From: Candidatus Adiutrix sp.
GTDB lineage: Bacteria > Desulfobacterota > Desulfarculia > Adiutricales > Adiutricaceae
Direction: 5' to 3'
Length of the DNA: 17,420 nt
Assembly (NCBI GenBank): GCA_031273445.1
Contig: JAISRV010000322.1
Span: 1 to 17,420 of the forward strand
A model generated the notes under the pieces. It saw only the letters and a list, made by a program, of their open reading frames with translations, did no database searches and was not told the DNA's origin. The first letter of the stretch is position 1, and every line of letters starts with the position of its first letter. Of the stretch, positions 2,228 to 17,420 are shown in pieces. The position numbers and the translations under genes were made by a program.

Positions 2228-2280
2228 AAAACACCTGCAATTTTAAATGTGAATGCTAGGCTGGGCCGGCTGGGTCGTAG

Positions 2281-2308: not shown

Positions 2309-2332
2309 CGAGCGAGTTTATCGGCCTCTCAA

Positions 2333-2403
2333 CCAGTCGCGTCCTCCGTCGCCCCTCTCCGGGGGCGACCGCCTTTTCCCGCTTTGGCTTGGAGCCTTAC
2401 TGG
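2333..2403 (-). other. Candidate structured leader or palindromic element upstream of ilvA
   Basis: Nested complementary segments are visible: CCAGT (2333-2337) with ACTGG (2399-2403) as an outer pairing; GTCGCCCC (2348-2355) with GGGGCGAC (2362-2369) as a strong 8-bp hairpin; and GGCT (2386-2389) with AGCC (2393-2396) as a small hairpin. This could be a branched RNA. The minus strand is preferred because the only clear plus-strand promoter lies downstream of it. No known riboswitch or attenuator consensus was recognised, and no Ile-rich leader peptide was evident. The gap 2228-2516 otherwise holds only the neighbouring palindrome and the eamA promoter. Confidence 0.35.
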
Positions 2404-2461
2404 GGCGAGCCCGCCGGTCTTCAGTCGGCCGCACAGGTTACTAGTGTCGCACAAAATCAGC

Positions 2462-2490
2462 TTTACAGGCAAGGGAAAATACACGATAAT
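2462..2490 (+). promoter_or_regulatory. Predicted sigma70-type promoter for the eamA pair
   Basis: TTTACA (2462-2467) and GATAAT (2485-2490) are separated by 17 bases, close to the bacterial -35/-10 consensus. Transcription would begin near 2497, leaving a leader of about 20 bases that carries a GGAG Shine-Dalgarno (2508-2511) five bases before the ATG at 2517. Position and spacing fit the downstream transporter gene well. Confidence 0.65.
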
Positions 2491-2516
2491 AATCACTCGC
2501 GTCTGATGGAGAAAAA

Positions 2517-3440: not shown

Positions 3441-3587
3441 TGCGGCGACGATCGCCGCGAATTCGCTTGCGGTCTTGATTTGCAATGAGGCTGCGGCGCG
3501 CCTGGCCGCGGCCTCCTGTCATTTGAACCTTAGGATGAACCTTGGAAAAATTGCGGGGAGGGCGGGCCTCTTCGCCGGAGCATCATC

Positions 3588-4577
3588 ATGCCGCCCAAAA
3601 TGCGCGCTTTTATATATCTGCTTATCGCCGCCTTCATCTGGGGCTTTTCCTATCCCATCGGCCGCATGGCCCTGGAGCATCTGTCGCCCTTCGCCTATGG
3701 CGGCCTCAGATACATGTTCGGCTCGCTGGCCCTTATGCCGCTGGCCTGGCGCTGGCGCCGCCGTCCCGCCCCTATGGCCTATGCCGGCAACGACTCGCCC
3801 CGCCTGTGGCTCTGGGGAGGGCTGTTGAGCGGCCTGTGCCTGAGCGTAGGCGCCTTTCTTCAGCTTTACGGCCTGGCGCAGTCCTCAGCCGGCAAAGTCG
3901 CCTTCATCACCGCCCTTTACGTCTCAATGGTGCCGATTCTGGCCTTCATCGCCGGGCAGATGCCGCGCCTTCTGGTTTTAGCCGGCCTGGGCGTCGGCCT
4001 GGCCGGCCTGTATCTTCTGACCGGCGGCGCCGGGGGCTTCCACAAGGGGGAGGGCCTGATTCTGGCCGCCGATGTTTTCTGGGCCCTGCAGGTGCTGATA
4101 ACCGGGCGCCTGGCCGCCCGGGTCAACACCTGGCTGTTTTCTCTGGCCCAGGCGATGACCGGCTGCGCCGTCACGCTCATCCTGGCGGTCCTGACCGGCA
4201 ATATGCCCGGCTGGGGCCTGTTTTTGCAGACCCTGCCCTTCACCATGTGGGGCATACTTTCCGTGGGCCTGGCCTACACCTGCCAGACGGTCGCCCAGCG
4301 GGACGTCTCTTCCACTTCCGCCGCCCTGGTGCTGCCGCTGCAGTCGGTCATCGGCTCCGCGGCCGGGGCGCTGATGCTGGGGGAACAGATGACCGCCGGC
4401 ATGATCGTGGGCGCGCTGATCATTGTCGCCGGCTGCATTATCGCCCAGTTCGCCCGGGAGCCCGTGCTCATAACCGGGGAACACCGGCTTTACCGGCCCA
4501 TTTTACGCCTGCGCGTCGCCCTGAGCCTCTTCCTGGGGCTGGGCACGGCCGGGCTCCTGATCTGGGCGCTGACCTGA
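3588..4577 (+). CDS. EamA/DMT-family transporter (second of tandem pair)
   Basis: This 329-residue membrane protein is a paralogue of the preceding gene: FIWGFSYPIGRMALEHLSPF and SSAGKVAFITALYVSMVPIL align with the equivalent parts of the first copy. Two EamA repeats of five helices are expected. The C-terminus has an extra helix-like segment (LRVALSLFLGLGTAGLLIWAL) after the usual last helix, which the first copy lacks. GGAG at 3577-3580 sits seven bases before the ATG and fixes this start against a longer overlapping plus-strand frame. No separate promoter was seen in the 147-bp gap, so it is probably cotranscribed with the first copy. The two may act alone or as a heteromeric pair. The gene ends 13 bp from the convergent methyltransferase, with no visible terminator between them. 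Confidence 0.9.
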   Translation: MPPKMRAFIYLLIAAFIWGFSYPIGRMALEHLSPFAYGGLRYMFGSLALMPLAWRWRRRPAPMAYAGNDSPRLWLWGGLLSGLCLSVGAFLQLYGLAQSSAGKVAFITALYVSMVPILAFIAGQMPRLLVLAGLGVGLAGLYLLTGGAGGFHKGEGLILAADVFWALQVLITGRLAARVNTWLFSLAQAMTGCAVTLILAVLTGNMPGWGLFLQTLPFTMWGILSVGLAYTCQTVAQRDVSSTSAALVLPLQSVIGSAAGALMLGEQMTAGMIVGALIIVAGCIIAQFAREPVLITGEHRLYRPILRLRVALSLFLGLGTAGLLIWALT

Positions 4578-4590
4578 TTGAGGGGCGATT

Positions 4591-5346
4591 TTATATTTCC
4601 TGAAAGAGGTAGCGGGAAAAAACGTTTTTGGCCAAGGCGGCCTCGGCCATGAAGTTTTCGTTGACGAAGCGAAGCGGGCGGCGGGGTTCATAGGGGCAGT
4701 TCCGCCCGGCGAAGACGGTGATGGCGCCCAGGCCGGCGGTCTCGCCCCAGGTGATGATTTCCTGCGACAATACTTTTCCCCGATAAGCCGACACAAGGTC
4801 GGCCGCCAGCTCGGCGGAAACGTCGGGGTCGTGGGCATGATCAAAGCCCGGGTTGCCGCGGACGGCTTTTAAATTTGAATGGTGGATGAAACAGACTCCT
4901 TCGCGGCTTAACAGAGATTCAAGAATTTGGCGGATATAAGCCTCCAGAACGTCCGGCGAGGCATGAATCATGGAATCGAAAGAAAAAATGAAGTCATATT
5001 GCCAGTCGGCCGCCCCGGCCAGGGAATAGCCGTCGTTCAGTATGGCCTTGAAATCAGGGTGGGGGGCGGAAAAGGCGTCTTGACAATACCGCACGCATGG
5101 CCCGGCGAGGTCCACCGCCCGGTAGGCTTCCGTGGCCGCGCCGATCAGGAATTTCGTCCAGCGGCCATAGCCCGGGGCTATTTCCAAAATGCGCCGGGCC
5201 GGCAGAAAACAGCGGATGCGGGGATAGATGGTGGAGAGCCATTGGGCGGTTGACGACCCCCAGGCCTGGGACCATTCTTCGCCATGATTTTTCCGCCAGT
5301 CGTAGCGGTTGTTCCATTTGTCGAGATTCCAGCGGATATCCGGCAT
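4591..5346 (-). CDS. Class I SAM-dependent methyltransferase, last gene of the glycan operon
   Basis: The 251-residue product carries a motif I, ILEIAPGYGRWTKFL, near residues 53-67, followed by an acidic loop AVDL near 77-80 and a motif IV-like DFIFSFDSMIH. This is a Rossmann-fold methyltransferase of the type often found in polysaccharide clusters. The N-terminus is Trp/Asn-rich (RWNLDKWNNRYDW). The ATG at 5346 lies six bases after the stop of the TylF-like gene, so the two are probably cotranscribed. In this context it may methylate a sugar or its precursor. Substrate and position are not predictable. Its composition is GC-richer than the radical SAM genes upstream of it. Confidence 0.85.
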   Translation of the reverse strand: MPDIRWNLDKWNNRYDWRKNHGEEWSQAWGSSTAQWLSTIYPRIRCFLPARRILEIAPGYGRWTKFLIGAATEAYRAVDLAGPCVRYCQDAFSAPHPDFKAILNDGYSLAGAADWQYDFIFSFDSMIHASPDVLEAYIRQILESLLSREGVCFIHHSNLKAVRGNPGFDHAHDPDVSAELAADLVSAYRGKVLSQEIITWGETAGLGAITVFAGRNCPYEPRRPLRFVNENFMAEAALAKNVFSRYLFQEI

Positions 5347-5352
5347 AAATTT

Positions 5353-6021
5353 TCACTCTTTGACGACAAAACATGGGACATGCGCTAGTTCCAGTTTTTT
5401 GACGCAGCCTCGATGGGCGCGAAAAAAATCGTCCACCGCCCTGGTCGCCCCATCCACCAAGGCATAGTCGTCCAGCATTATCACGCCGCCGCGAACCACC
5501 AGGTCAAAAAGATTCGCCAGGACGCTCCCGGTTACTTGGCATAAATCAACATCTATGTGCAAGAAGGCGATGCGCAGCTCCGGATGATCCTTAAGATAGG
5601 CCGGCAATGTCTCTAAAATATCTCCTTTCACCAGCTCGAAATTTGTGACCCGCTTCGCGGCAAGTATATTTTCCAGTTCGTTTTTTTCAAGGCCAGGTCC
5701 GGCGCCGGCGTTGAATTTATTGGCGAAATCCCTATCATTGGAATTCACGCCGCTGGGGATGGGGAAATCGCCAAAAGCGTCGAAGGCTATCACTTTTCGA
5801 GACTCCGAAGCGCCTAAGGCGTCACGAAAGGCGCAAATCCGGATCAGCGAGCATCCTTTATAAACGCCGCATTCCACGATCTGTCCCGGCAATCCGAGCG
5901 TCATTTTGTATAACTCATATTGAGCCAGGATTTTTTTTATTCTCCTTTGCTCGCAGGTTAAATAAAAAGCGTTTTCCGCATGATAGGATTTTTTTTCATT
6001 TTCCGGCGAAAACGTCTCCAT
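5353..6021 (-). CDS. TylF/MycF-type (macrocin O-methyltransferase family) methyltransferase
   Basis: The 222-residue protein has the TylF-family SAM motif IVECGVYKG near residues 48-56. Acidic residues typical of the metal-dependent members are seen in FLHIDVDLC and in VRGGVIMLDDY. Family members O-methylate sugar hydroxyls, and homologues are common in surface-polysaccharide clusters, so O-methylation of a glycan or nucleotide sugar is inferred. The ATG at 6021 was chosen because AAGGAGAGG stands nine bases before it. A TTG 36 bases further up lacks comparable support. The gene begins inside the last 26 bases of the upstream radical SAM gene, so coupling is likely. The region is AT-rich compared with the flanks (line 5941-6000 is 21/60 GC by hand count). 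Confidence 0.88.
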   Translation of the reverse strand: METFSPENEKKSYHAENAFYLTCEQRRIKKILAQYELYKMTLGLPGQIVECGVYKGCSLIRICAFRDALGASESRKVIAFDAFGDFPIPSGVNSNDRDFANKFNAGAGPGLEKNELENILAAKRVTNFELVKGDILETLPAYLKDHPELRIAFLHIDVDLCQVTGSVLANLFDLVVRGGVIMLDDYALVDGATRAVDDFFRAHRGCVKKLELAHVPCFVVKE

Positions 6022-7720
6022 TTGGTTTTTCCTCTCCTTCCGCTTGTAAGCTTTCAATCAATAAGACGTTTCTTATATCGTCATCTAGCAAATCAGCGTA
6101 TTTTAAATAAGAGCGCGCTGTTTCATCAGTTCGTATCAGATGTTTCATATGCTCAATGGTCATTTTTTGCCTTATCGCGTCGCCGCGTTCGGCATATATG
6201 CGACGCAGCATGTCAAAGCCGAACAGTTGGTTTTTAATGCTTTTCACCCGGTTAAGGTATACGGCCTCCGCGACATCTAATTTCCCTTCCCGCAAAAGCC
6301 GGACATGGCCGTAATTTAATTCCAAAACGGCCAGAAAAGACATCTCCGAGATATCTTTGGCGCTGATTTCCTCCGTATCAAATAAACGCTCCATCCAGGA
6401 ATTGTTTGCTTGCCAATACTCGGGCGAATCCTTTATATATCCAAGATTCACGAATTCATCATACATTTTTGTTCCTGGAAAAGGGGTGGCGATGGAACAG
6501 GTTATCCAATCCACATCCAGGCGTTTGGCCAAAGCTACGGTCTGGCGCATCGACTCCGCCGATTCGCCCGGAAAACCGATCATAAAAAATAACTTAATCA
6601 GCATGTCTTTGGATTTGGCGTATTGAACCAGATATTCCAGCTTTTTCATATCGAGATTCTTGCCGATTTTTTTCTGCATTTCCGGACTGGCGGATTCCAC
6701 CGCCAATGACAGATCGACGATGCCGGCCTCGCTCAAGGCGTCGATAATCGCTTTGGTCGTATGATTCACGCTCATGTTCAGCACAATCATATGGAGTTCG
6801 GGAATGTTCAGGTCGCGAAGCATGGCGAATAAGTCCAGGGCTTTCGTCTCGGGAACAAAATTGTCGTCCAAAATAATTATGCAATTGATCCGCCAAGTAT
6901 TGTGTAGCCATATTATCTCGTCGCTGATATTCTCCAGGCTTCGCCAACGCGGACGACGGCCATGCATCAGCGCCGAGGCGCAAAAGGAGCAACCCACAGG
7001 GCAGCCGCGCGAAGCCATTACTGAAAATGAATTCGCCTTTTCCGGGGCGACGCTTAAGGTTGAATTGAAATTGGAATGACTGGCGTAAAATTCCATATCC
7101 ATGAATTCTGGGTAAAGCCGAAAATCCAGGTCGATATTTTCCGGCAGCGCGGCGGCTTGGAGTTTGCCGGCGGCATTTTTACGAATACGGCCTTTCCAAT
7201 GAACGCCGGACAAATCGCCTATTCCCCTTCCCCCGGCCAGAATTCGCCGGCATAATTCAGGAAAAACCGCCTCGCCCTCCCCGCAAATTATATAATCCGC
7301 CAGGTCGGTATTTTCTAAAATATACTCTCCAACTGCGGTTATATGGCAACCTCCGGCAATGATAGTGCAATCTGGTAAGATATTTCTGGCGGTCTCGGCC
7401 AGAAGCATGAAAAACACATGACTTGTAGTGAAGTTTACAGAGATGCCGATTATTTGGGGAGGTTTTTCCATATATTGTTTTAATGCGTCTTCCATAAATT
7501 TCGTATAATCATCGTAATTCGTAAATGTGGAGCATAATCCTGAACAGATATTTAAATCCAGATGCGAGACCTGTATTTCCGGATATTCTCTTTTCAGAGC
7601 GCAATATAGATAAAAAAGGCCCAGCGGCGGCTGCAGGGGCGGATGGTGAGCGGCCGCGTCATGATAGGCAATATCAATGCCGGCCGGAGGGATGCTGATC
7701 AGTAATACTCCGTCGCTCAT
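5996..7720 (-). CDS. B12-binding-domain radical SAM protein (third in the operon)
   Basis: The 574-residue protein has an N-terminal cobalamin-binding-like Rossmann domain (about 1-180, with PPLGLFYLYCALKREYPEIQV and later IICGEGEAVFPEL) and a radical SAM core with the cluster-binding motif CPVGCSFC near residues 240-247 (CxxxCxxC). An obvious DxHxxG cobalamin motif is not seen, as in many members of this group. A helical C-terminal extension of roughly 130 residues follows. Family members do methylations at unreactive carbons or phosphorus and other radical rearrangements; in a sugar cluster, C-methylation of a sugar is a reasonable guess. The ATG at 7720 is chosen because AGGAG lies seven bases before it. 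The frame is open further up to a GTG overlapping the previous stop. An anaerobic, oxygen-sensitive enzyme is implied. Confidence 0.88.
   Translation of the reverse strand: MSDGVLLISIPPAGIDIAYHDAAAHHPPLQPPLGLFYLYCALKREYPEIQVSHLDLNICSGLCSTFTNYDDYTKFMEDALKQYMEKPPQIIGISVNFTTSHVFFMLLAETARNILPDCTIIAGGCHITAVGEYILENTDLADYIICGEGEAVFPELCRRILAGGRGIGDLSGVHWKGRIRKNAAGKLQAAALPENIDLDFRLYPEFMDMEFYASHSNFNSTLSVAPEKANSFSVMASRGCPVGCSFCASALMHGRRPRWRSLENISDEIIWLHNTWRINCIIILDDNFVPETKALDLFAMLRDLNIPELHMIVLNMSVNHTTKAIIDALSEAGIVDLSLAVESASPEMQKKIGKNLDMKKLEYLVQYAKSKDMLIKLFFMIGFPGESAESMRQTVALAKRLDVDWITCSIATPFPGTKMYDEFVNLGYIKDSPEYWQANNSWMERLFDTEEISAKDISEMSFLAVLELNYGHVRLLREGKLDVAEAVYLNRVKSIKNQLFGFDMLRRIYAERGDAIRQKMTIEHMKHLIRTDETARSYLKYADLLDDDIRNVLLIESLQAEGEEKPNGDVFAGK
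6031..6039 (-). promoter_or_regulatory. Strong Shine-Dalgarno for the TylF-like gene
   Basis: AAGGAGAGG on the minus strand, nine bases before the ATG at 6021. It lies within the coding sequence of the upstream radical SAM gene and decides the start codon over a TTG at 6057. Confidence 0.8.
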
Positions 7721-7727
7721 GGACATT

Positions 7728-7732
7728 CTCCT
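7728..7732 (-). promoter_or_regulatory. Shine-Dalgarno deciding the start of the radical SAM gene
   Basis: AGGAG seven bases before the ATG at 7720. An ATG six bases upstream would be only one or two bases from this site, and a GTG at 7747 overlaps the previous gene's stop (GTGA) without such a site. Confidence 0.7.
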
Positions 7733-7743
7733 GATTTGAAAAT

Positions 7744-8658
7744 TCACGTCTGCCTGAAGCCGCGGAAGTCAATGTTTCTTTCGACATAAAGATTGTTCAG
7801 CATATCTATCAATTTGCGCTGTTTGATTTCATGATTGTTCATCAAAATACTTTGATTGGCTTCATGTAGAGCAAGGTAAAATTCGTCGTCCGTCAATTCC
7901 GTAAAGTTGACTGTCATCAAATCTGAATTCAAATGTTTGTTTTCATAGAAATCAGCGCAATCTTCAATAAGCCCCAACCGAATCGCCTCGGCATATAATT
8001 CTGTTCCCGGAAACGGTATAACCGGCTTTATATTTCGCACCTGGGCGCCATTGTCATATTTAACGACGAAATCCGTCGTCTGCCGCAAGGTTCGAAGATT
8101 TTCCCCTGGAATCCCGAACATGACGTTTAAGCCCGGCGTTATGCCGGCCGCCAGGGAGGCCTCGACCCCCTTCACGATCGTTTCGGTGGTCAAAGCCTTT
8201 TTCATATTTCGTAAAATTTCGTCGTCGAAAGATTCGATGCCGAAGTGAATGAAGACGCAGCCCGCCCTTCGCATGGCGGCAAGCACTTCCGGCTTGGCGT
8301 GGTTGAGGCGGCCGCAACACATCCATTTTATGTTCAGCTTTTCCCTCATCATGGCCTCGGACAAGCGCATCGCCCTGTCGTCGCTGGACAAAAGCAGTTC
8401 ATCGCAAAAATATATGAAGGTAATGCCAAAATCTTTTTTCAACAGCTTTATTTCCTCAATTATGCCCTCATCGCTTCTGGGGCGGAACCCTTCGTCCAGG
8501 CGATAACAAAAGGTGCAATTATAGGGACACCCCCTTCCCGAAATCATTAAGCCCACAAAATCCGTGGCGGCGCAATGCGGTAATCTGATCAGGCGGTATA
8601 TTTCCATGGGGAATCTGTGGTAGGCGGGAAAGGGTATCTCGTCAATAGCCTTTATCAA
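7744..8658 (-). CDS. Radical SAM catalytic half of a split B12-binding radical SAM enzyme
   Basis: This frame encodes a radical SAM core with the [4Fe-4S] motif CPYNCTFC (cysteines at residues 44, 48 and 51), GIESFDDEILRNMKK and a late GTELYAEAIRLG strand, but lacks the N-terminal cobalamin-binding domain of its neighbours. It begins with IDEIPFPAYHRFP, the normal linker between the B12 domain and the radical SAM core. The only start near the overlap is a TTG at 8658 with a weak AGG before it. The missing domain is in the preceding frame, overlapping by 17 bases, and removing one C from a CCCC run at 8659-8662 would join them as ...SQAPLIKAIDEIPFP. It is therefore either a frameshifted single gene (mutation or sequence error), a frameshift-translated gene, or a genuinely split enzyme. 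Confidence 0.8.
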   Translation of the reverse strand: MIKAIDEIPFPAYHRFPMEIYRLIRLPHCAATDFVGLMISGRGCPYNCTFCYRLDEGFRPRSDEGIIEEIKLLKKDFGITFIYFCDELLLSSDDRAMRLSEAMMREKLNIKWMCCGRLNHAKPEVLAAMRRAGCVFIHFGIESFDDEILRNMKKALTTETIVKGVEASLAAGITPGLNVMFGIPGENLRTLRQTTDFVVKYDNGAQVRNIKPVIPFPGTELYAEAIRLGLIEDCADFYENKHLNSDLMTVNFTELTDDEFYLALHEANQSILMNNHEIKQRKLIDMLNNLYVERNIDFRGFRQT

Positions 8659-9136
8659 GGGGCGCCTGGGATTTATTTATATGAACAGCCTCTCCTTCGC
8701 GCCAGGCCAGGCCTTTTATTTTTTCAAGCGACCGGTTTGCGGTTATGGCCTCCGCAAGTTCCAATATCGTTTCCTCGCCCTCGCCTATGCAGACAGCGTC
8801 AGCGTTGAGTTTTCGCAGGAAATAGGCCGGTTCCGGGGCGGGCCCGTGTCCTCCGATGCAGAAAAAGGGGCGATTCTTAGATCCATTGACGATCTTTGAT
8901 ATTTCCAAAGCCTTCCGGTATGGCCAATAGCCTCCTATGAAGCTCAACCCAACCATATCATAGCGTATTTCCTCTAATTGTCTCGCCAAATGATCATTTG
9001 AATAATGATGAACATCCTGGCCATAGATATCCGCCTGATGGCCGTGTCGTTCCAATACGGCGGTCAAATATGCGATCCCGATAGGGAAATAAGGGATATA
9101 TGACTCATTGTCGTATAATACGAAAAGAATTCGCAT
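8642..9136 (-). CDS. B12-binding domain half of a split radical SAM enzyme
   Basis: The 164-residue product is a stand-alone cobalamin-binding-like domain: MRILFVLYDNESYIPYFPIGI opens a Rossmann fold in which PIGIAYLTAVLERHG matches the 'PlGlayLaavL' pattern of B12-radical SAM proteins. MVGLSFIGG, FFCIGGHGPAPEP and the terminal GEGEETILELAEAI complete it. It stops at a TGA only 15 bases after the point where the radical SAM half comes into frame. GGAGG about ten bases before the ATG at 9136 supports the start. On its own it has no cluster-binding cysteines and would be inactive as an enzyme. It lies 29 bp after the cytidylyltransferase-RraA gene. Confidence 0.8.
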   Translation of the reverse strand: MRILFVLYDNESYIPYFPIGIAYLTAVLERHGHQADIYGQDVHHYSNDHLARQLEEIRYDMVGLSFIGGYWPYRKALEISKIVNGSKNRPFFCIGGHGPAPEPAYFLRKLNADAVCIGEGEETILELAEAITANRSLEKIKGLAWREGEAVHINKSQAPLDKGY

Positions 9137-9165
9137 CGGGGAATCGCCTCCATAGCTTGAAGTAA

Positions 9166-10461
9166 TCAGAATCCGCCAAATCGCGAATATAAGTCGTTAT
9201 AATTCTGGCTGCTCATGATATTCGCGATAATGCTGTGCTCCTTGACGAAGGCCTCAAGAGCGCGCTCCAAAATTCTCGCTTCCCATTCGAAAGGAAAAAC
9301 AATCACTCCCTCCCTGTCGGCGAATATCAAATCGCCCCTATTGATCTCAATGCCGTTTATGACTATTTTTTTCCCATATGAATCGCAGGTCGCCCGCTTG
9401 CGAACATCCGCGCAGCATACCCCCCTGGCGAATACGGGAAACCCGATCTCCGAAACGGCGGCGGAATCACGGGTCATGCCGCCGATGACAGCTCCCGCCG
9501 CTCCCGCCTTCACCGCCATATTGGCGTTCAGCTCGCCGAAATAGGCGTAATTCGGGCAGTCGTTCTGGACCATAATGACGTCGCCCGGAGTTATATGGTT
9601 ATAAGATTCAAGGGTCTTGTAAATTCCGGAATAATCCTCGCCGGAGCGAAGCGGACGCAGATGCAGGGTAAAGGCGCGGCCAAGAATCCTGCTGCGCCTC
9701 AAATTCGGCTTCAACGAGCTTATCACTCCCCTCACCCCAAGATCATCCATTATGTCGGAGAGCATCGGGCTTGAAAAATGCACGGCCAGCATGGCGAATC
9801 GGCTGCGCGCCCTTTCCCGCATGCCGGCCGCGATGGCCTCGGCCAGCGGCAAGTCCTCCGGATCGTTCAAATCAACGGCTTCAAGAGGCGAAGCCTCCAG
9901 AAGATAGGGCTTCTCGCCTATGCGGCGCCCTGTTTTCAGAGCGGCCTCCCGTCTGACCATATACAGGCCCATGGTTTCACTGTAGATCCAAGGCAAATCA
10001 ACTGAATTAGGTATATGGGCGCAATCATATCCGGGTCCCGATTCGGTCCATTCGTATCGCTTATCCTTGCGAACCAGAACAACCGAATCATATTCGGAAC
10101 CGCTCATAAGAACATCAAGGCCTTTCTTTAAAGTTCCCGGGGCGATAAAGGGGCTGGTGCAAAGTATCTGAACTATTATGTCGGCTTCCGTGTGGCGGAC
10201 TTCATTCAGGAACATGCCGTTGCCGTCGGCGGCGTTGGTGGCGAGAGCCGGATCCCGATGCAGACGGAGACAATTGAGATGATCAGCCATTTTATGGATT
10301 TCAGGAGATTCAGAATCCAGCCAGACCTCGTCGAACAATCCGCTTTTAATTATTTTATCCAGCGTTATCAGGAATAACGGCATGCCGTCAAGATTAAAGA
10401 TATTCTTGTTTTTAATTCTTTCGCTGTTTCCCTTTGCGGGAAGAAAGATGGCTGTGCGCAT
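9166..10461 (-). CDS. Fusion: CMP-sugar (NeuA-like) cytidylyltransferase + RraA/HMG-aldolase-like domain
   Basis: The 431-residue protein has two parts. Residues 1-220 resemble acylneuraminate cytidylyltransferases: a nucleotide-binding motif IFLPAKGNSERIKNKN (5-20), VQILCTSPFIAPGTL, and a late SETMGLYMVRREAAL. Such enzymes join CTP to sialic or other nonulosonic acids. Residues 221-431 look like the RraA family (HMG/CHA aldolases and RNase E regulator homologues): GELNANMAVKAGAAGAVIGG (309-328) followed by TRDS with the conserved Arg-Asp pair (331-332), then ADREGVIVFP. The residue before the second G of the usual DG is Gly here. The start at 10461 has AAGGGG five bases before it; a GTG at 10548 would overlap the previous gene by 47 bases and is less likely. 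It is inferred to supply an activated acidic sugar to the downstream transferases. Confidence 0.85.
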   Translation of the reverse strand: MRTAIFLPAKGNSERIKNKNIFNLDGMPLFLITLDKIIKSGLFDEVWLDSESPEIHKMADHLNCLRLHRDPALATNAADGNGMFLNEVRHTEADIIVQILCTSPFIAPGTLKKGLDVLMSGSEYDSVVLVRKDKRYEWTESGPGYDCAHIPNSVDLPWIYSETMGLYMVRREAALKTGRRIGEKPYLLEASPLEAVDLNDPEDLPLAEAIAAGMRERARSRFAMLAVHFSSPMLSDIMDDLGVRGVISSLKPNLRRSRILGRAFTLHLRPLRSGEDYSGIYKTLESYNHITPGDVIMVQNDCPNYAYFGELNANMAVKAGAAGAVIGGMTRDSAAVSEIGFPVFARGVCCADVRKRATCDSYGKKIVINGIEINRGDLIFADREGVIVFPFEWEARILERALEAFVKEHSIIANIMSSQNYNDLYSRFGGF

Positions 10462-10466
10462 ATTTT

Positions 10467-10472
10467 CCCCTT
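10467..10472 (-). promoter_or_regulatory. Shine-Dalgarno deciding the start of the cytidylyltransferase-RraA gene
   Basis: AAGGGG five bases before the ATG at 10461. The longer frame to 10548 would give 29 extra residues of non-conserved, hydrophobic sequence. Confidence 0.6.
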
Positions 10473-10501
10473 CTGCCGCCTTGATAAGCCGTATGACCGA
10501 G

Positions 10502-12187
10502 TTAATGACTAATATTATCTTCATCGCCAGGCTTGGTATAAACATCACTAAACATGCCCTTGAGCCTAACAGGATTTATGGAAATTATTTCAGTGTCAGG
10601 ATAATAATTCGCAGCGAAGTTTTTCATTATTTCCCAATTGGGCATCATCATTTTAAGATAGTAAGCTCTGTTGACATCCAGAGATAAAGATTCAAAGAAC
10701 CGGCTGTCTTCATCGCCCGATATAAAATGCTCGTTAGATGTAACGGTGCAATCGCATCCAACCAAATATATTCGGCGCGGATTCGTGAACAATATAAATT
10801 GCAAGGCCTGGTGGGCTATGGTAAAAGAATTCCATAATGGTTGAATATCAATATCAACGGGAATCGGCCAGCCCAAAATAAAATCCCCTTCAGACCGGCA
10901 AACGAATTGGCCGTTTGTTTTATATTTCCTGGCATTTTTCAGTTTCAGAAACAATGATTCCGGAAACAACCAATCGCCGCCTGTTATATGACCCGCGCTC
11001 TGGTTGCAGATGAACTTTACGCAATTATTGCCCGTATATTCCACAAATTCATTCATAAAAGAATCTATGCCGCGCCTATCCAGGCAAAATAAAAAATCAA
11101 ATTTGACTTTATTCAGCATAAAAGCGCGATTACAGCCCACGTGAAGGGCATTTTTTATTGGAATATAATCATTGGCGGTCGGGCCAGCCGCAACCAAAAC
11201 AACATCACGCCCGGCAAATGCCCCCTTGTATTCGCCGAATGTTTTCTGATGCAGAACCAGACTTTCGATATCTCGGCATATAAATCGACCAAGATCCGTG
11301 AAGTTGTTATCCAGCCTAAGGGCTGTCCGGGGCAATGATTTTAGCCTTATTTTAGGCCGGGATCCGCGCGGGGGGAGATGCGGGCGCGCTTTTCGCGGGC
11401 CGGTCGCTTGCAGCAGTTTATCCTGGCGCATAAATACGTGCGCCAGATATAAGCGCACCTCAGAAGCGGGCAAGGAGAAGCCCAAGAGTTCAAGTTTAGA
11501 AGAGAACGACGGAGGAGGGCAATATTGAAAACCCTGCCGCAGAGATTTCAAGTAAGGCGAGTCCGGTTCCGGCTTTTCTTCCAGCTCTGGCGCCGGGCGG
11601 TCAGCCGCGGCGGCCGGTTTTTCCGCCGCCAGCAAAACCAGTCCCCGCGGGCTGAACCAGGCCGCCGGGTCGGCCCCGGCCGGGGCCTGATTCAGACTGG
11701 CGTGGAGCGGCCGCAGACCGGCGTATTCCGCCAGACCAGCCAAGGCGGCGGGGCTGAAACGGTAATAATCAGGCAAATAGGCATGTTTGTTGAAAGAGAT
11801 ATTTTTGCCCTCCGGGGTTATTTCGCTTAACCCCGGCTCTATCAGGCAGATCCGCCCGCCCGGTTTGAGAACCCGGGCCATTTCCGCAAAAGTCAGCCAG
11901 GGATATTTGACGTGTTCCAGGGCGGTGGCGCCCACCACCAGGTCAAGGCTCTCATCGTCAATTTCCGGCCAGCGGTGAGGGTTTAGGGCCGGGATTTCCG
12001 GTTGATCAACTTGGGCGGGCTGGAGGCGGCTGTAATCCAAATCTTCGCCGGTCAGCAGGGCCAGCCGCTCCTGATCCTGGTCATAACGGCCGATATCCAG
12101 CAGGCGGATTTTGATTCCAGGTTCAGCCGGGCGCGGAAACCAGGCTTCTCGCAGCCACCGCAAGCGGGTTTTAACCGGCAACAGCAT
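10502..12187 (-). CDS. Fusion: methyltransferase-like domain + DUF115 (MptE/Maf-like) glycosyltransferase-like domain
   Basis: The 561-residue protein starts with a methyltransferase type 11-like domain (about 25-190): LLDIGRYDQD stands where motif I should be, but without the GxGxG signature, and TALEHVKYPWLTFAEMARVLKPGGRICLIEPG (about 88-119, here given in one continuous region of positions) is typical motif IV-VI sequence. A Pro/Ala/Glu-rich linker (about 185-290) follows. From about residue 323 a Rossmann domain begins with DVVLVAAGPTAND (GPT at 335-337), then FLFCLDRR and RRIYLVGCDCT, resembling DUF115/MptE-like proteins, which include the Maf flagellin glycosyltransferases; a GT42 sialyltransferase-like relation is an alternative. 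Base composition changes sharply near 11340, inside the linker. The start overlaps the GT9 gene by 17 bases. The role inferred is transfer of the CMP-sugar made by the next gene. Confidence 0.75.
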   Translation of the reverse strand: MLLPVKTRLRWLREAWFPRPAEPGIKIRLLDIGRYDQDQERLALLTGEDLDYSRLQPAQVDQPEIPALNPHRWPEIDDESLDLVVGATALEHVKYPWLTFAEMARVLKPGGRICLIEPGLSEITPEGKNISFNKHAYLPDYYRFSPAALAGLAEYAGLRPLHASLNQAPAGADPAAWFSPRGLVLLAAEKPAAAADRPAPELEEKPEPDSPYLKSLRQGFQYCPPPSFSSKLELLGFSLPASEVRLYLAHVFMRQDKLLQATGPRKARPHLPPRGSRPKIRLKSLPRTALRLDNNFTDLGRFICRDIESLVLHQKTFGEYKGAFAGRDVVLVAAGPTANDYIPIKNALHVGCNRAFMLNKVKFDFLFCLDRRGIDSFMNEFVEYTGNNCVKFICNQSAGHITGGDWLFPESLFLKLKNARKYKTNGQFVCRSEGDFILGWPIPVDIDIQPLWNSFTIAHQALQFILFTNPRRIYLVGCDCTVTSNEHFISGDEDSRFFESLSLDVNRAYYLKMMMPNWEIMKNFAANYYPDTEIISINPVRLKGMFSDVYTKPGDEDNISH

Positions 12188-13169
12188 TCGGACGGATTCC
12201 CTTTATATTTGAGGCCAGACCGGATGGGCCCGAATCGGCCTGGCGAGGACCGACCCTGGCCCGCATTCTTTTCAGATAGCCTTCTATGACCTCCGCCGGC
12301 CTAACCCGGGCCGCCGGTTCGCTGGGGCGGCGGACGATGTGACCGGGCTCGGCGTAAAAGCCGGTATAGGGCAGATGTTCGGTAAAATCAGCCAGGCGGC
12401 CCATGATGACCAGTCCATCCACGCCCAAGGCGTTCGCCAGATGGGCAAAACCGCTGTCCACCCCGAAAAAGAAGTCGGCCCCGGCCATGAGCCGGGCCAG
12501 CGACTGCAGGGAACGCCGGCCGGTCAAATCATTATAGAGGGCATGGCCGGCCCGCGGCGCGGCGGCTTTGAAGCCTATTTCAGCCACGGACAAGCCCCGG
12601 GCGAACAGGAAATCAGCCAATTCGCCCCACTTAGAGTTCAGCCAATCCTTGCGGCCATCATTGGAACAAGCGTGGAAGACCACATAAGGGCCGGCGACGG
12701 GAGGAGCTACGGCCTCCGGGCGGATATAAAAACGGGGCGCCTCATCCAGCGGCGGCAGACCGGCCGAGCGGCAAAAAGCCGTCAAGAGGGGGCCGAAGCG
12801 GAAATAATTGCGCCAGGTGATGTCCGGGTCGTTATCGTTAAGAACATGCTCGCCGGTGTCGAAACAGCGCTGGCCATTGAAATGAAGATTCAGCACATCG
12901 GCGCCGGCGGCTTTTAGCTTGCCGGCCAGGCGGCCGCCGGCGGCCAGGCTGGGCGCGGCGATAAAAAAATCCAAGGCCGGATGCCACCTTAAAGCCTCAA
13001 AATAGGCCTCTTTGCCTATCCAGGCCAAGGGGGCGCCCGGGCGGAGCCGCTGGGCATAGCGAATGACCGGCTCGCAGGCTATAATATCGCCCAGATGTTC
13101 CAGGCGCATTATGGCCGTCAGATTCGCGGCCGGAACCGGCAATTTTTCAGGCTTGATCATTTCAGCCAT
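12171..13169 (-). CDS. Glycosyltransferase family 9 (heptosyltransferase-like)
   Basis: The 332-residue protein has the two hallmarks of GT9: an N-terminal RLEHLGDIIACEPVI (about 22-36, the 'GDxxxxxP' acceptor-side loop) and a C-terminal FFFGVDSGFAHLANALG (about 233-249), the donor-binding 'DSG.aHlA.aLG' motif. GT9 enzymes add heptose or related sugars to the LPS core in the cytoplasm from nucleotide-activated donors. The start is uncertain: the ATG at 13169 overlaps the end of the radical SAM gene by eight bases, a TTG at 13181 extends it, and an ATG at 13160 shortens it; none has a strong Shine-Dalgarno. The 3' end overlaps the fusion gene, consistent with coupled translation. A glycan-core or glycoprotein role is inferred. 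Confidence 0.85.
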   Translation of the reverse strand: MAEMIKPEKLPVPAANLTAIMRLEHLGDIIACEPVIRYAQRLRPGAPLAWIGKEAYFEALRWHPALDFFIAAPSLAAGGRLAGKLKAAGADVLNLHFNGQRCFDTGEHVLNDNDPDITWRNYFRFGPLLTAFCRSAGLPPLDEAPRFYIRPEAVAPPVAGPYVVFHACSNDGRKDWLNSKWGELADFLFARGLSVAEIGFKAAAPRAGHALYNDLTGRRSLQSLARLMAGADFFFGVDSGFAHLANALGVDGLVIMGRLADFTEHLPYTGFYAEPGHIVRRPSEPAARVRPAEVIEGYLKRMRARVGPRQADSGPSGLASNIKGIRPNAVAG

Positions 13170-15024
13170 CGCCAAGCTCAACCGCGCTTTCCTCGGCCAA
13201 TATGTGCAGACTGGCTATATGTTTCAGGCCATAACGATTCGCGGCCGCATCATAAATGGCCTGATAGGCGGCGGTATAGGGATTCACGGCTATGACCAGA
13301 ACCGGCGCGTGTCCCTCCTCAATTTGATCCGCCAGGGCTGCGGGGCCCTCAACCGGCTTGGCGCCGTAAAAGCCGCCAGGTTTGGAATCCATCAACAGGA
13401 TGCCGGGCTGATCGGAAAATTCCGGCGGAACGGCCGACCGGAACAGTCGTCCGATGCCCCAAAAAGCCAACCGGTCATATTTCTGAAAAAGACGTTCCAG
13501 GGAAGCTTTCAGCCCCTCGTTCCAGCTCGGGAGTTGGAAATACGGCGACCCGAAGATAGCCCCGCAATAAGGACAATGGTGACGGCGCAGTTTAAAATGA
13601 GAGATGTAATCTATCCAGGCCCCGCATTGCCGGCACCTGCCGCTTATCTTTCTTTTGACGGATTGAAAATGAAAATCGTAAACTTCTCTTTGCCTGTCTA
13701 ATTGCACCTTGGGGTTATGAAAGCGGCCTAAAAGCTTTTCATATATTTCCCCGAGCAGACAGGCATATTCGTCATCACTCATTTTTGATATGTTCACCAG
13801 AGGATAGAGATTTTTTATATGTTCCGTTTCATCTTTGATCCGGCCCAGGGCCAGCGCCCGTTTATAGAGAACGGTTCCAGGGTAAAGGGTGATGGTGCCC
13901 AGAAAAATCATGTAATCCGGATGGGCTTCCCACCAGGCCAATGTTTCATGGGCGGTTTCCCGGGTTTCCTCCACATCGCCAAAAATGAAAGTGCCGAGGC
14001 AAGACAGGTTGTTTCTCTTTAAAATATCCAGCGCCCGCTCCATCTGTTTAACGCTGATTCGCTTGTTCATGCTTTGGAGTATGCGGTCGCAGGCGCTTTC
14101 CAGCCCCAGCCCCACATAGCCGCAGCCGGCTTCCTGAAGAAGGGCTATGGCCTCTTCATCAACCTGCGAGACCCTCATATTGATGCCCCAGCCCTTGAAC
14201 TCAAGCTCTTTCAGCCTGGAACACAATTCCCGCAGACGGGGCTTGGATTCAGCCAGGAGATCGCTGTCTATATCCAGATGCCGGCTGGCCAGGCCCAGGT
14301 TGAGCCAATGCCGCAATTCGGCCATAAAGTCGTCCAGAGGGCGGGGGCGGTAGCGGGATCGTTCCCTGGAATTATGGCAAAAGGTGCATTGAAACGGGCA
14401 ACCCCGGCCGCTGTGAATGAAGATGCGTTCATTATAGCTTTCCACATCGGTTCCCAAGTTGGCCAAATAATCAACCACGCCAAAACTTTCATAGTCCGGC
14501 CGGGGAATATCGCGCCAGTCGGCTATGAGCCGCCGCGGAGCGGTCAGATAAAAACCTTCGGCCTCTTTTATGACGAGCCCGGCCACCGCCTTGACCGGCC
14601 CTTTATTTTTCAGGGCCGTGATCAGTTCCGCAACCGTTATTTCGCCTTCGCCGATGATGCCGTAATCGGCAAACTCTATGAGACGCATGGCCGCTTCCGG
14701 GGCGCCGGTTAATATTGTGCCGCCGGTGATGGTGACGACGGCCGGATTGACGGCTTTGGCCGTCTCGAAGATCATTCTCAGGCTGACCCAGTTGGGGGCG
14801 AAGCCGCCGCTCAGAACGGCTTCGATCCGTTCTTCTTCCATTATGGAAACCAGCTTGACCCGCTGAGCCCGCGTGTCGCCGCCCGCTTCCAGCTCCAGAT
14901 TGAGGTTGACCACCTTGAGGCCGCCCATTCGTTTCAGAGAGGCGGAAATCAGGGGCAGCCCCGGAGAGCAGGCCCGTCGGTATTCATCCAAGCTGGTGAC
15001 GGGTAAAACCAAGAGGCAATTCAT
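13162..15024 (-). CDS. B12-binding-domain radical SAM protein with C-terminal zinc ribbon and Rossmann-like domain
   Basis: The 620-residue protein opens with a cobalamin-binding-like domain (1-170; PGLPLISASLKRMG, GGTILTG, GIIGEGEITVAEL). A radical SAM core follows with CPFQCTFC (cysteines 209, 213, 216), GLGLESACDRILQSMNKR and a late TITLYPGTVLYKRA. Beyond it lies an unusual tail: CRQC/CPYC, a four-cysteine zinc-ribbon-like motif at 464/467 and 484/487, and a Rossmann-like segment (about 517-610; FWGIGRLFRSAV, LLMDSKPGGFYGAKPVEG) similar in style to sugar-enzyme C-terminal domains of the Methyltransf_14 or PglD type. It begins 11 bases after the TylF-like gene stop, with an AAAGGA site upstream. 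It may be a sugar C-methylase that docks its substrate with the tail; this is an inference. Confidence 0.85.
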   Translation of the reverse strand: MNCLLVLPVTSLDEYRRACSPGLPLISASLKRMGGLKVVNLNLELEAGGDTRAQRVKLVSIMEEERIEAVLSGGFAPNWVSLRMIFETAKAVNPAVVTITGGTILTGAPEAAMRLIEFADYGIIGEGEITVAELITALKNKGPVKAVAGLVIKEAEGFYLTAPRRLIADWRDIPRPDYESFGVVDYLANLGTDVESYNERIFIHSGRGCPFQCTFCHNSRERSRYRPRPLDDFMAELRHWLNLGLASRHLDIDSDLLAESKPRLRELCSRLKELEFKGWGINMRVSQVDEEAIALLQEAGCGYVGLGLESACDRILQSMNKRISVKQMERALDILKRNNLSCLGTFIFGDVEETRETAHETLAWWEAHPDYMIFLGTITLYPGTVLYKRALALGRIKDETEHIKNLYPLVNISKMSDDEYACLLGEIYEKLLGRFHNPKVQLDRQREVYDFHFQSVKRKISGRCRQCGAWIDYISHFKLRRHHCPYCGAIFGSPYFQLPSWNEGLKASLERLFQKYDRLAFWGIGRLFRSAVPPEFSDQPGILLMDSKPGGFYGAKPVEGPAALADQIEEGHAPVLVIAVNPYTAAYQAIYDAAANRYGLKHIASLHILAEESAVELGDG

Positions 15025-15035
15025 GACCTGATCCT

Positions 15036-15860
15036 TTAAAGAACGAGAGAAGCTGACGCTTCCCGAGAACCGGCGGCGGGCAGAACAGGCGTCCCCGATT
15101 TGTCCGGCAGGAGCACTAGAGATAAGGAATGTTCGCCAATAAATTCTTCAACGGCCTGGGTGGCCCCCGGCCAGAAGCCCGAGGAATAATCATGCAGAAA
15201 CAGCAGGCCGCCAGACGCCATCCTGGGAAAAAAGAAGTTCAGCCCCGCCTTCATGGGCTGATATAAATCACAATCCAGGCTGACGAAGGCAAATTTTTTG
15301 TCGGCCATTTCCAGGGGCAGGGAATCGGGGAAAAGGCCGATAAAATATCGGCATACCTCAGGATGGCCGACCAGCTTTTTAACCTCGTTAAAATCAGCGT
15401 CCTGAAACGCCGGACTTATTTTGGCGTCAACGCCCGCCAAATTATGATCGTCAAAGCCTTTAAAAGTATCGAATAAATAAAGTTTTCTCTGCTGTTTGGC
15501 CGCGTAATAGGCCAAAATAGCGGCGGTATTGCCTTTATAAACCCCCACTTCGGCGAAGTCGCCCGGGACGTTGCGGCGGCCCAGCATTTTAAGATTAAGG
15601 AGCAAAGAGAAGAACCGGCTGAAATCGCCTGAATTATTGTTTTCCTGGCCTTTGACGAACAGTTTGAAAAGCGCCGCAGCCTCAGGATGGGCCTTAAAAT
15701 GCCATAAAGAATCGGGGTTATATTCAAGCCGGAAAGGCGCCGTCAGCCAGTCGCGGATTTTGTGGAGCTCCAAAAACGGCCTTGTCTTAAACAAGACTGT
15801 CAATTCTGAATCTTCCTCCGCAGCGACAGCCGGCACGGCCTTTGGCTGTTTTTCGCTCAT
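15036..15860 (-). CDS. TylF-like methyltransferase (second copy type)
   Basis: The 274-residue protein has a TylF-type motif I, FAEVGVYKG (102-110), the acid loop LYLFDTFKGF (127-136), FVSLDCDLY (192-200) and GGLLFLHDYSS (217-227), whose Asp residues fit metal binding in TylF/MycF enzymes. It differs from the other TylF-like gene by about 50 extra N-terminal residues and by an Ala/Ser-rich tail. It probably methylates a sugar hydroxyl on a nucleotide- or lipid-linked glycan intermediate. Its ATG overlaps the stop of the upstream GT9-methyltransferase gene by ATGA (15857-15860), so the genes are translationally coupled. Two TylF-like enzymes in one operon imply two methylation steps. Confidence 0.88.
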   Translation of the reverse strand: MSEKQPKAVPAVAAEEDSELTVLFKTRPFLELHKIRDWLTAPFRLEYNPDSLWHFKAHPEAAALFKLFVKGQENNNSGDFSRFFSLLLNLKMLGRRNVPGDFAEVGVYKGNTAAILAYYAAKQQRKLYLFDTFKGFDDHNLAGVDAKISPAFQDADFNEVKKLVGHPEVCRYFIGLFPDSLPLEMADKKFAFVSLDCDLYQPMKAGLNFFFPRMASGGLLFLHDYSSGFWPGATQAVEEFIGEHSLSLVLLPDKSGTPVLPAAGSREASASLVL

Positions 15861-17420
15861 TGAATCTCTTTTCTGAAAAACGCGTGACGGTCATTATGCG
15901 CCCGCGGCAGGAAGGCTTTCAATTCGGGTTGCCGCTCCATATGGCGGATATGCAGCACGCCGCGGCTGGAAAGTATGCGCCGCATTTCCCGCAGGGCGAA
16001 CTCGGGGTTCGCATAGGCGCCGTCGGCGCAATCCCAGACCACCAGACCACAGGCGCCGTCCGCCTCAGGGATATTGCCGGGGTCGGCGAATTCCGCGCCA
16101 TAACCGGCCTCACCAGCGGCTGATATTTCCATCGGGCTCAAAGCCAGGGCATAGATTTGCGTCTTATGCCCGTTTTTTACGTATTCCAGGCATTCATCAT
16201 GGTCATAACGGCCGATGAAAACAATTTTTTCCGGATTGGCCGGTTCCCAGGCTTCACAGGCGGACCAGGTCCATTTATGGCTCCAGGAATCAACAATGGC
16301 TTCCAGCTCGCCGCTGAGGCCGCCCATAACCATTTCCGGGCTCAAGGCCGACAGGCAGGGCGGCGGCGCTTCAGAGCCGCGCAGACATTTTGTCCTCCAG
16401 TCGTCAACCACCCATTCACACCAAATGGGGCAGGCTCTGGCGCTTAGATTTATATTATTGGGGTAGCCAAAAAAATCCGGGCTAGTGGGCCCGAAGAAAA
16501 CCGCCGATTTCCCATTCAAAGCCTGCTTCATATGCACCATGCCCGCTTCGCCGTCAATATGCAGAGCGGAGAATTTCAGCAGAATTTTGAGTTCCTCAAA
16601 ATTTGTGCGGCCGCGTAAATCCAGATCCACGCCCTTAATTTCAGATTCGCCGGTCAAGCCTTCCCCCAGCAGAACCAGTTTAAGCCGCGGAAATTTTATT
16701 TTAATTAATTCAACCAGCCCATTATAATAAGGCAAGGGCCAAAGACGCATGTCTTTCTGGCTGAGGCCCTTATTGACCCCCCGCTGCAAAGTGATATAGG
16801 GTTTGTCGCTCAAGCCGTTGAGTCGCAAGATCCCAAAATGGTTATAGTTCAAAATCATCAAGGCCTTGCCGGCGCCGCTCATTTTTAAAAGGCCTGTTAT
16901 ATCGCACTGGGTGCGGCGATTTCGGCCATTGGCCAGCGAATACATTATTCCGCCCAATTCATCATAATCAGGTCTATCATCAACTATCCATTGTTTATAA
17001 GGGAAAGCCTCAAGACGGTCTATCAGTTTTTTCAAATTTGGCGAACATTCGCTGATTTTAGCTCTGTTCCAATACCTAACCCGCGGGACGCGCCTTAAAT
17101 CAAAAAAAGCGTCAATTTGTAGGGCATTGCTGGCCTCGGCTATATCATAGCATTGATAAAATCTGATCACTGAACCAATAAATGGATAGCCATAAAAAAC
17201 GGATTGCATAACTTTATAACCAGCGCCGGCAAACAGATGAAACACGCAAGGTTTTTCCATATATTTATATAATTCTTTCAAGTAATTAGCGTCTATGACA
17301 AAATCGCCTATCCCCCCCGTCATTCTTACGGCAATGTTGATGGCTTCAGGATTGCCGGCGGCGATTACGGGACGAAGAGTGGCCAGCCGTTCCGTAAGCA
17401 GCCGATCAAGGGCGAGCTTT
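15857..17420 (-). CDS. Fusion: GT9-type glycosyltransferase + methyltransferase-like domain, partial (5' end beyond right edge)
   Basis: The frame is open from 17420 to its stop at 15857, so 520 residues are visible and the N-terminus is missing. An ATG at 17323 is internal: the conserved N-terminal GT9 strand reads INIAVRMTGGIGDFVID across it. The GT9 donor motif appears later as HIDGEAGMVHMKQALNGK, then SAVFFGPTSPDFFG. After about visible residue 395 comes a methyltransferase-like module, IVFIGRYDHDECLEYVKNG, with NPEFALREMRRILSSRGVLHI as its motif V-VI, but no GxGxG loop. The same 'GRYD' module heads the fusion gene at 10502. The GT9 part is AT-rich (line 17161-17220, 19/60 GC) and the module GC-rich (lines 15961-16080, 81/120 GC). 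A seven-G run (17312-17318) lies in the GGIGD codons. Probable glycan transferase and first visible gene of the operon. Confidence 0.85.
   Translation of the reverse strand, partial: KLALDRLLTERLATLRPVIAAGNPEAINIAVRMTGGIGDFVIDANYLKELYKYMEKPCVFHLFAGAGYKVMQSVFYGYPFIGSVIRFYQCYDIAEASNALQIDAFFDLRRVPRVRYWNRAKISECSPNLKKLIDRLEAFPYKQWIVDDRPDYDELGGIMYSLANGRNRRTQCDITGLLKMSGAGKALMILNYNHFGILRLNGLSDKPYITLQRGVNKGLSQKDMRLWPLPYYNGLVELIKIKFPRLKLVLLGEGLTGESEIKGVDLDLRGRTNFEELKILLKFSALHIDGEAGMVHMKQALNGKSAVFFGPTSPDFFGYPNNINLSARACPIWCEWVVDDWRTKCLRGSEAPPPCLSALSPEMVMGGLSGELEAIVDSWSHKWTWSACEAWEPANPEKIVFIGRYDHDECLEYVKNGHKTQIYALALSPMEISAAGEAGYGAEFADPGNIPEADGACGLVVWDCADGAYANPEFALREMRRILSSRGVLHIRHMERQPELKAFLPRAHNDRHAFFRKEIQ

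Follow-up and report, generated by a model that had tools for sequence, protein, structure and literature searches.

Introduction

In the pathway of 3-deoxy-D-manno-octulosonic acid (Kdo), the open form of which is a 4-hydroxy-2-oxo acid, KdsA is the Kdo-8-phosphate synthase that condenses phosphoenolpyruvate (PEP). Two groups of described enzymes come closest to the protein considered here: the synthetases of cytidine monophosphate (CMP)-ulosonates of the NeuA, PseF and KdsB types, and the 4-hydroxy-4-methyl-2-oxoglutarate/4-carboxy-4-hydroxy-2-oxoadipate (HMG/CHA) aldolase of the RraA superfamily. Enzymes of the latter type act on 4-hydroxy-2-oxo acid groups of this kind via a metal-bound pyruvate enolate, and the residues named for them, Arg123, Asp124, Glu199 and Asn71, were used for mapping (PMC5065237). 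A stretch of 17,420 nucleotides from Candidatus Adiutrix sp. (assembly GCA_031273445.1, contig JAISRV010000322.1, positions 1 to 17,420), hereafter the window, carries a gene in which a cytidylyltransferase and an RraA-like domain are joined. This fusion is a real, conserved two-domain protein, and many of its carriers show linkage of its gene to those of KdsA, KpsF/KdsD and KdsC. From this genetic company, which extends to some Gram-positive bacteria, it probably makes an activated sugar of the Kdo type. Chances are about even that both domains serve one enzyme in a pathway to a surface sugar of the Kdo type, which would activate a KdsA-derived ulosonic acid that its RraA domain has first remodelled.

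The fusion protein and its distribution

The gene is read from the minus strand (Table 1) with an ATG start at 10459-10461, and the plus-strand frame over the same positions is interrupted by stops. An earlier note, made from the DNA letters without database searches, had seen a NeuA-like N-terminus at residues 9-20 and an RraA-like C-terminus with TRDS at residues 330-333. Both are found where it placed them in the minus-strand frame, in which AKGNSERIKNKN occupies residues 9-20, GELNANMAVKAGAAGAVIGG residues 309-328 and TRDS residues 330-333. When the two halves were searched separately in Pfam, as proposed there, each exceeded its own cut-off: CTP_transf_3 on residues 5-137 with 57.3 bits (cut-off 22.6) and RraA-like on residues 234-388 with 104.4 bits (cut-off 24.5). 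The AlphaFold2 model is confident, with a predicted local distance difference test of 92.2 and a predicted template modelling score of 0.87. Narrower models stayed below their cut-offs, namely the NCBIfam KdsB models listed (best 30.8 bits, cut-offs at least 193), the PseF model TIGR03584 (58.7 of 205.7 bits) and the HMG/CHA aldolase equivalogs TIGR02798 (62.4 of 304.5 bits) and NF006731 (70.3 of 179 bits).

A homologue search gave 995 of 7999 scored candidates at E 1e-3, and in the best 120 of these both domains are present without exception (120/120, precomputed Pfam). In one-genome-per-species contigs 145 stretches were found to encode a relative; in the best 80 of these 145 loci, which were kept, the relatives are 41-55% identical to the fusion. 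Because all 120 listed homologues share the architecture, and the 80 kept loci in other genomes encode relatives, an assembly artefact, a chimera or chance is ruled out. The carriers, whose taxonomy including the designation Gram-positive is taken from the names in the sequence records, belong to the Bacillota, Pseudomonadota, Bacteroidota, Melainabacteria/Cyanobacteriota, Acidobacteriota, Ignavibacteriota, Verrucomicrobiota, Campylobacterota, Elusimicrobiota and others. At E <= 1e-80 the fusion was not found in the 97 other genomes searched of the window's wider group (0/97, six of the same genus), and its distribution is therefore patchy. In a tree of 81 fusions the window's row is a long branch of unsure placement. 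Cargo of a mobile element was considered and dismissed, because neither the plasmid collection (E <= 1e-30) nor the phage collection (E <= 1e-10) gave a match.

A search for stand-alone RraA proteins returned 31 matches (P0121-P0151) of at least 40% identity. Three of the four that were read start inside the cytidylyltransferase domain and are pieces of fusions; the fourth, P0136, begins at the RraA domain, and a stand-alone form is thus possible. Nothing on the fusion was found in the openly licensed literature of PubMed Central, as far as its texts were available, which does not imply absence from print; the same search gave no paper on a CMP-Kdo synthetase with an aldolase domain, nor on Kdo epimers. 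A paper on a Vibrio capsule came up as a candidate and was set aside, since in the available part of it rraA and menA are only the borders of the cluster (PMC11641403).

The active site of the RraA half

Residues were counted over 200 rows, made up of 81 from the loci (80 loci plus the window) and 119 from the database; compared over the columns of the window, 197 of the sequences are distinct, and at 90% identity they fall into 154 clusters. R331 and D332 are invariant in 200/200 rows (81/81 loci-plus-window, 119/119 database), and T330 is kept in 81/81 loci-plus-window rows. The pairing of E408 with Glu199 comes from the profile alignment and is shifted by one residue in the single-sequence alignment to 3noj. 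Glu stands at this position in 199/199 rows that have a letter there (80/81 loci rows, L083 being gapped, and 119/119 database rows). The fusion thus has the Arg123-Asp124 pair and the Glu199 ligand of the RraA-like or class II pyruvate aldolases, and its metal/arginine site, including the metal site at Asp332 that the earlier note had picked out for inspection, is intact as judged by sequence.

These counts bear on the idea, offered in the same note as an alternative, that the RraA part is a regulatory or structural module. Escherichia coli RraA does bind and modulate the RNA degradosome (PMC5065237, available part), and an oligomerisation module devoid of chemistry would be in keeping with this. 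That the catalytic residues are conserved throughout makes such a role less likely, however, and the model of the RNase E regulator RraA, NF006875, gives just 40.2 bits (cut-off 136); we consider it very unlikely.

Association with KdsA

Neighbours were counted with our own hidden Markov models (HMMs) in 75 contexts, i.e. 74 of the 80 loci plus the window, many of them shortened by contig ends. In six loci (L011, L013, L033, L047, L073, L079) the length-based gene caller had missed the fusion, and these are outside the neighbour counts and inside the residue counts. On the same strand as the fusion, KdsA was found near it in 19/75 loci (within 2.1 kb), KpsF in 24/75 (within 3.4 kb) and KdsC in 12/75 (within 6.3 kb); 28/75 have KdsA or KpsF. 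Genes of the DUF115/Maf type are present in 20/75, so that, to the question raised in the earlier note, the fusion does not always sit beside them. Among 95 immediate neighbours (same strand, 100-999 residues, gap under 250 bases) the most frequent Pfam families are DAHP_synth_1 (13), SIS (12), CBS (12) and MptE-like, which is DUF115 (10). All six KdsA representatives scanned pass the Kdo-8-phosphate synthase equivalog TIGR01362, and the single KdsC representative scanned is over the cut-off of the KdsC subfamily model and below that of the KdsC equivalog. On the tree of the 81 fusions, with the six loci outside the neighbour counts scored as "no", proximity of KdsA corresponds to 11 changes and that of KdsA or KpsF to 9, numbers that include losses and missing sequence; proximity is therefore probably not confined to one lineage. 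Five Photobacterium loci form one lineage on this tree.

For the genome-wide tests 50 of the 80 loci were chosen so as to include Bacillota, and 49 fusion genomes were covered. KdsA (TIGR01362) is over its cut-off in 47/49. There are two exceptions: in G006 the fusion has a fragment of KdsA next to it where the contig ends, and in G046 (1.3 Mb) none was found. KdsB (TIGR00466) is over its cut-off in 35/49. The tally for NeuB is 36/49, of which 25 genomes have a match over 200 bits and the remaining 11 have matches under 55 bits only, mostly on genes resembling 3-deoxy-D-arabino-heptulosonate-7-phosphate (DAHP) synthase. A NeuB-linked pathway was rejected, no NeuB having been found in the bacterium's own genome (71.7% complete).

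The Gram-positive carriers are the more telling ones, since LPS (lipopolysaccharide)-bearing bacteria carry KdsA anyway and co-occurrence in Gram-negatives therefore says little. There are 14 nominally Gram-positive carriers, i.e. Bacillota outside the Selenomonadaceae (G001-G003, G005-G015). KdsA is over its cut-off in 13 of them, KdsB in three (G006, G008, G013; 11 are without), and a NeuB match over 200 bits exists in five (G003, G006, G007, G010, G014). Seven (G001, G002, G005, G009, G011, G012, G015) have neither KdsB over the cut-off nor NeuB above 55 bits. Binning error alone is no explanation, because five of the 14 belong to named strains, namely Cohnella lubricantis, Cohnella sp. CFH 77786, Gracilibacillus halotolerans, Paenibacillus amylolyticus and Agathobacter ruminis, which are all KdsA-positive and none of which has KdsB over the cut-off. 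In the loci of P. amylolyticus and G. halotolerans kdsA is less than 1.6 kb from the fusion, whereas in Cohnella sp. CFH 77786 (G007) it lies on a different contig. Among 394 genomes of the family of P. amylolyticus KdsA is over its cut-off in four and the fusion (E 1e-80) is found in three: all three fusion carriers have KdsA as compared with 1/391 of the others (Fisher p 4e-7). Among 397 genomes of the family of A. ruminis KdsA is found in nine. KdsA is thus rare in both Gram-positive families sampled; the fusion accompanies KdsA, whereas KdsA often occurs without the fusion. As a separate observation, the kdsA match of G015, an uncultured Anaerotruncus (C38:9076-9843), contains an in-frame TAG and lies just downstream of the fusion; this contig is apparently that of L075, by number and position only.

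The earlier note had proposed that the RraA part may make (or trim) a 2-keto-3-deoxy sugar acid by pyruvate aldol chemistry. In this scheme the RraA domain would condense pyruvate with an aldose and the N-domain would load the acid with CMP, so that no PEP-type synthase is needed. It would account for the invariant Arg, Asp and Glu, for the similarity to HMG/CHA aldolase in fold and sequence, for the failure to find NeuB in the bacterium's own genome (71.7% complete) and for the 47/75 loci in which neither KdsA nor KpsF was found near the fusion. The dedicated kdsA, kpsF and kdsC genes, which accompany the fusion in Gram-positives although these should not require them for LPS, would however stay unexplained. 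With KdsA near the fusion in some loci and present in nearly all fusion genomes, Gram-positives included, the scheme is not favoured, and as the sole source of the acid we regard it as improbable. What stands of the wider proposal, which tied the fusion to a NeuB-independent activation of an acidic sugar, are the two real domains, the aldolase site that is intact by sequence, a link to the activation of acidic sugars, the DUF115/Maf-type genes in part of the loci and the failure to find NeuB in the bacterium's own genome; as the source of the acid it is KdsA that accompanies the fusion.

kdsA loci without the fusion

Nine loci around kdsA (L090, L092-L099) were read in KdsA-positive, fusion-less genomes of the two Gram-positive families. 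In 9/9 a cytidylyltransferase-type gene adjoins kdsA or is one gene off. In L092-L095 it encodes KdsB over the cut-off; in L090, L096 and L097 its product is related to the N-domain but unfused, with 144-161 bits in the HMM of the N-half; and in L098 and L099 it is a more distant cytidylyltransferase (28-34 bits). The fusion elsewhere occupies the place beside kdsA that in these loci is held by KdsB or another cytidylyltransferase. A search of the nine loci with the RraA half at E 1e-4 gave no match; the RraA domain therefore looks like an added module outside the basic Kdo route. Of the two distant proteins, that of L098 (7291-7959) scores 40.0 of 205.7 bits with the PseF model and that of L099 (9209-9922) matches no NCBIfam model at E 1e-8. 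The several alternative cytidylyltransferases at kdsA in the two families may point to an under-described Kdo-type pathway of Gram-positive bacteria.

Two pairs occur on separate contigs of one Gram-positive carrier (G013), one of kdsA with kdsB and one of kdsA with the fusion, which suggests two different products and hence that the fusion's product is not CMP-Kdo. Such redundancy arguments also bear on the possibility that the RraA domain serves disposal or proofreading, splitting keto acid that is in excess or of the wrong kind into pyruvate and an aldose and so guarding the activation step, with plain CMP-Kdo as the product. The reaction scheme given for HMG/CHA aldolase is an aldol cleavage (PMC5065237), and the linkage to KdsA would be as expected. 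A second enzyme for plain CMP-Kdo would, however, be redundant in the 35 carriers with KdsB and in the bacterium with the separate kdsA-kdsB pair, and the four KdsB loci (L092-L095) are among those without an RraA match; we think disposal or proofreading unlikely. The case for a product other than CMP-Kdo is built on the same redundancy arguments.

Proposed function and its difficulties

In the pathway that we prefer, the octulosonic acid, either Kdo or a compound close to it, would come from KdsA, KdsD and KdsC, and in Candidatus Adiutrix the genes for this would be located elsewhere in the genome. The RraA domain would then break and re-form the C3-C4 bond, by which C4 would be inverted or the aldehyde part exchanged; the N-domain would couple the final acid to CMP; and a glycosyltransferase of the DUF115/Maf or another type would transfer the activated sugar. 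Neighbours of the DUF115 type fit such a pathway, because two Maf enzymes accept CMP-Kdo as donor (PMC11339370, available part). Only tentatively do we suggest that, ahead of the activation, the RraA domain acts on the keto acid in its open-chain form by metal-dependent chemistry through a pyruvate enolate, the simplest case being inversion at C4 by a retro-aldol and an aldol step, so that the product would not be ordinary CMP-Kdo. The full version is more speculative still: a new CMP-octulosonic acid, for which the RraA domain would be a Kdo epimerase that works by retro-aldol and aldol steps, so that the C3-C4 bond in KdsA-made Kdo is inverted or built anew (giving, e.g., 4-epi-Kdo), and the cytidylyltransferase with its Asn site would load it for DUF115/Maf-type and other glycosyltransferases, in Gram-negatives and Gram-positives alike.

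Several findings weigh against this pathway. The first concerns the cytidylyltransferase half. Of the metal pair Asp209-x-Asp211 of the Neisseria CMP-N-acetylneuraminic acid synthetase (CNS) the first Asp is kept as D197 and the second is lost, being N199 in 200/200 rows; N199 aligns to an Asp of both 1qwj and 9t4z. The conserved Gln104 of CNS is L100 in 200/200 rows, at a position that is also His or Cys in unfused relatives. According to the available part of PMC2901514, the exchange D211A lowers kcat of the Neisseria enzyme 15,000-fold, and Q104L, Q104E and Q104N lower the apparent kcat 800- to 20,000-fold, whereas Q104A does so just five-fold. Of all that was observed, we had expected this change at the metal site least.

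It could mean that the N-domain no longer transfers CMP and is a sensor that binds a nucleotide or sugar acid, with the RraA aldolase as the working part. Both exchanges speak for this, while D-x-D is retained in seven database relatives and in five unfused proteins encoded at kdsA loci (L090, L096-L099). Against a sensor speaks that K10, R15, K19 and D197 are invariant in 200/200 rows and, together with N20, R69 and D79, in 81/81 loci-plus-window rows. The seven Gram-positive carriers without KdsB over the cut-off or NeuB above 55 bits would moreover have no other activating enzyme in sight, with the reservation that unfused N-domain relatives were not searched genome-wide. We judge a sensor function distinctly unlikely.

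The other difficulties of the proposed pathway are these. The catalytically important Asn71 of HMG/CHA aldolase aligns to D276, in a weak stretch of the alignment, where the position is Asp in 66/81 and Asn in 2/81 rows. KdsA is expected in LPS-bearing bacteria regardless of the fusion. In the family of A. ruminis the fusion occurs in 1/397 genomes, which is the genome that defined the sample and is KdsA-positive (p 0.02). The 47 loci with neither KdsA nor KpsF near the fusion include the window. The KpsF representatives pass the broad KpsF/GutQ subfamily model (3/3), but none passes the KdsD or the GutQ equivalog. Finally, a clade of 14 rows, mostly alphaproteobacterial, has a different neighbourhood. 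In nine loci of this type (L068, L071, L072, L076, L077, L078, L080, L081, L082) an aminopeptidase-N-like gene, judged by eye, lies upstream on the opposite strand, and downstream a MobA-like nucleotidyltransferase (five loci) and a CDP-glycerol-transferase-like protein (six loci) stand in place of kds genes.

If the proposed pathway is true, a surface sugar and its activating enzyme have been overlooked across many phyla under database names such as "RraA family protein" and "CMP-N-acetylneuraminic acid synthetase". A role as enzyme would be assigned to one branch within the RraA superfamily, the Kdo genes of some Gram-positive bacteria would have a reason, and a donor sugar for Maf-type protein glycosylation would be at hand. 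The altered metal site would be a test of what CMP-sugar synthetases require.

The window and its own genome

Table 1. Positions of the fusion gene, its mapped residues and its upstream neighbour in the window
Feature	Positions	Strand	Basis
Fusion gene, CMP-ulosonate-synthetase-like plus RraA/HMG-aldolase-like domain, 431 residues	9166..10461	-	Pfam, homologues, AlphaFold2 model
T330-R331-D332; R331 = HMG/CHA aldolase Arg123 (enolate), D332 = Asp124 (metal)	9466..9474	-	alignment to 3noj
E408 = metal ligand Glu199 of HMG/CHA aldolase	9238..9240	-	profile alignment
D197-x-N199 metal motif, second Asp (CNS Asp211) replaced by Asn	9865..9873	-	200/200 rows
L100, at the position of CNS Gln104 / KdsB Gln98	10162..10164	-	Leu in 200/200 rows
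Upstream neighbour, methyltransferase domain plus C-terminal DUF115/Maf-like domain	10502..12187	-	HMM

The upstream neighbour scores 239 bits with an HMM built from the DUF115-type neighbours of other fusions and 16.5 bits with Pfam MptE-like, below the cut-off of 34.6. KdsA and KdsB of the same genome are on other contigs, not beside the fusion. That the window holds no neuB-like gene, as noted earlier, is correct, and NeuB was not found in the rest of this 71.7% complete genome sequence either.

The fusion gene lies in an island on the minus strand (4591-17323) with three systems of B12-binding and radical SAM domains, further methyltransferase domains, two methyltransferases of the TylF type (one of which, 15036-15860, was judged by eye and has no NCBIfam match) and two glycosyltransferases resembling family GT9, one of them just at the cut-off. 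This gene set could methylate a sugar or its carrier. A B12-binding open reading frame (8642-9136, minus strand) overlaps a radical SAM open reading frame (7744-8658, minus strand) in another frame; taken together (7744-9136) they resemble a single B12-dependent radical SAM gene that a frameshift or an assembly error has divided.

Comparison with known systems

A Kdo gene island of Bacillus coahuilensis m2-6 resembles the present case in that Kdo pathway genes occur in a Gram-positive bacterium; its authors name kdsB, and the available part of the text does not mention the fusion (PMC4744853). HMG/CHA aldolase (3noj), a class II pyruvate aldolase of the RraA superfamily, is a stand-alone enzyme, whereas the fusion joins such a domain to a cytidylyltransferase and, in the weak stretch of alignment around Asn71, has D276 opposite it. 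The unfused relatives in L090, L096 and L097 are 28-30% identical to the fusion's N-domain and are adjacent to kdsA and kpsF, with kdsC and a DUF115-type gene in L090 and L097; unlike the fusion they have no RraA domain, their D-x-D is intact and His is in place of Leu100. KdsB, the CMP-Kdo synthetase, belongs to the same Pfam family as the N-domain and, like the fusion at other loci, is encoded beside kdsA in L092-L095, but it is without an aldolase domain, and many carriers of the fusion hold a separate KdsB. From the CMP-ulosonate synthetases of the NeuA/PseF type, e.g., the CMP-Kdn synthetase PpNeuA (9t4z) and the murine CNS (1qwj), the fusion differs in having Asn199 and Leu100 where these have Asp and Gln, in its extra aldolase domain and in the genes of the KdsA pathway that are nearby in many loci.
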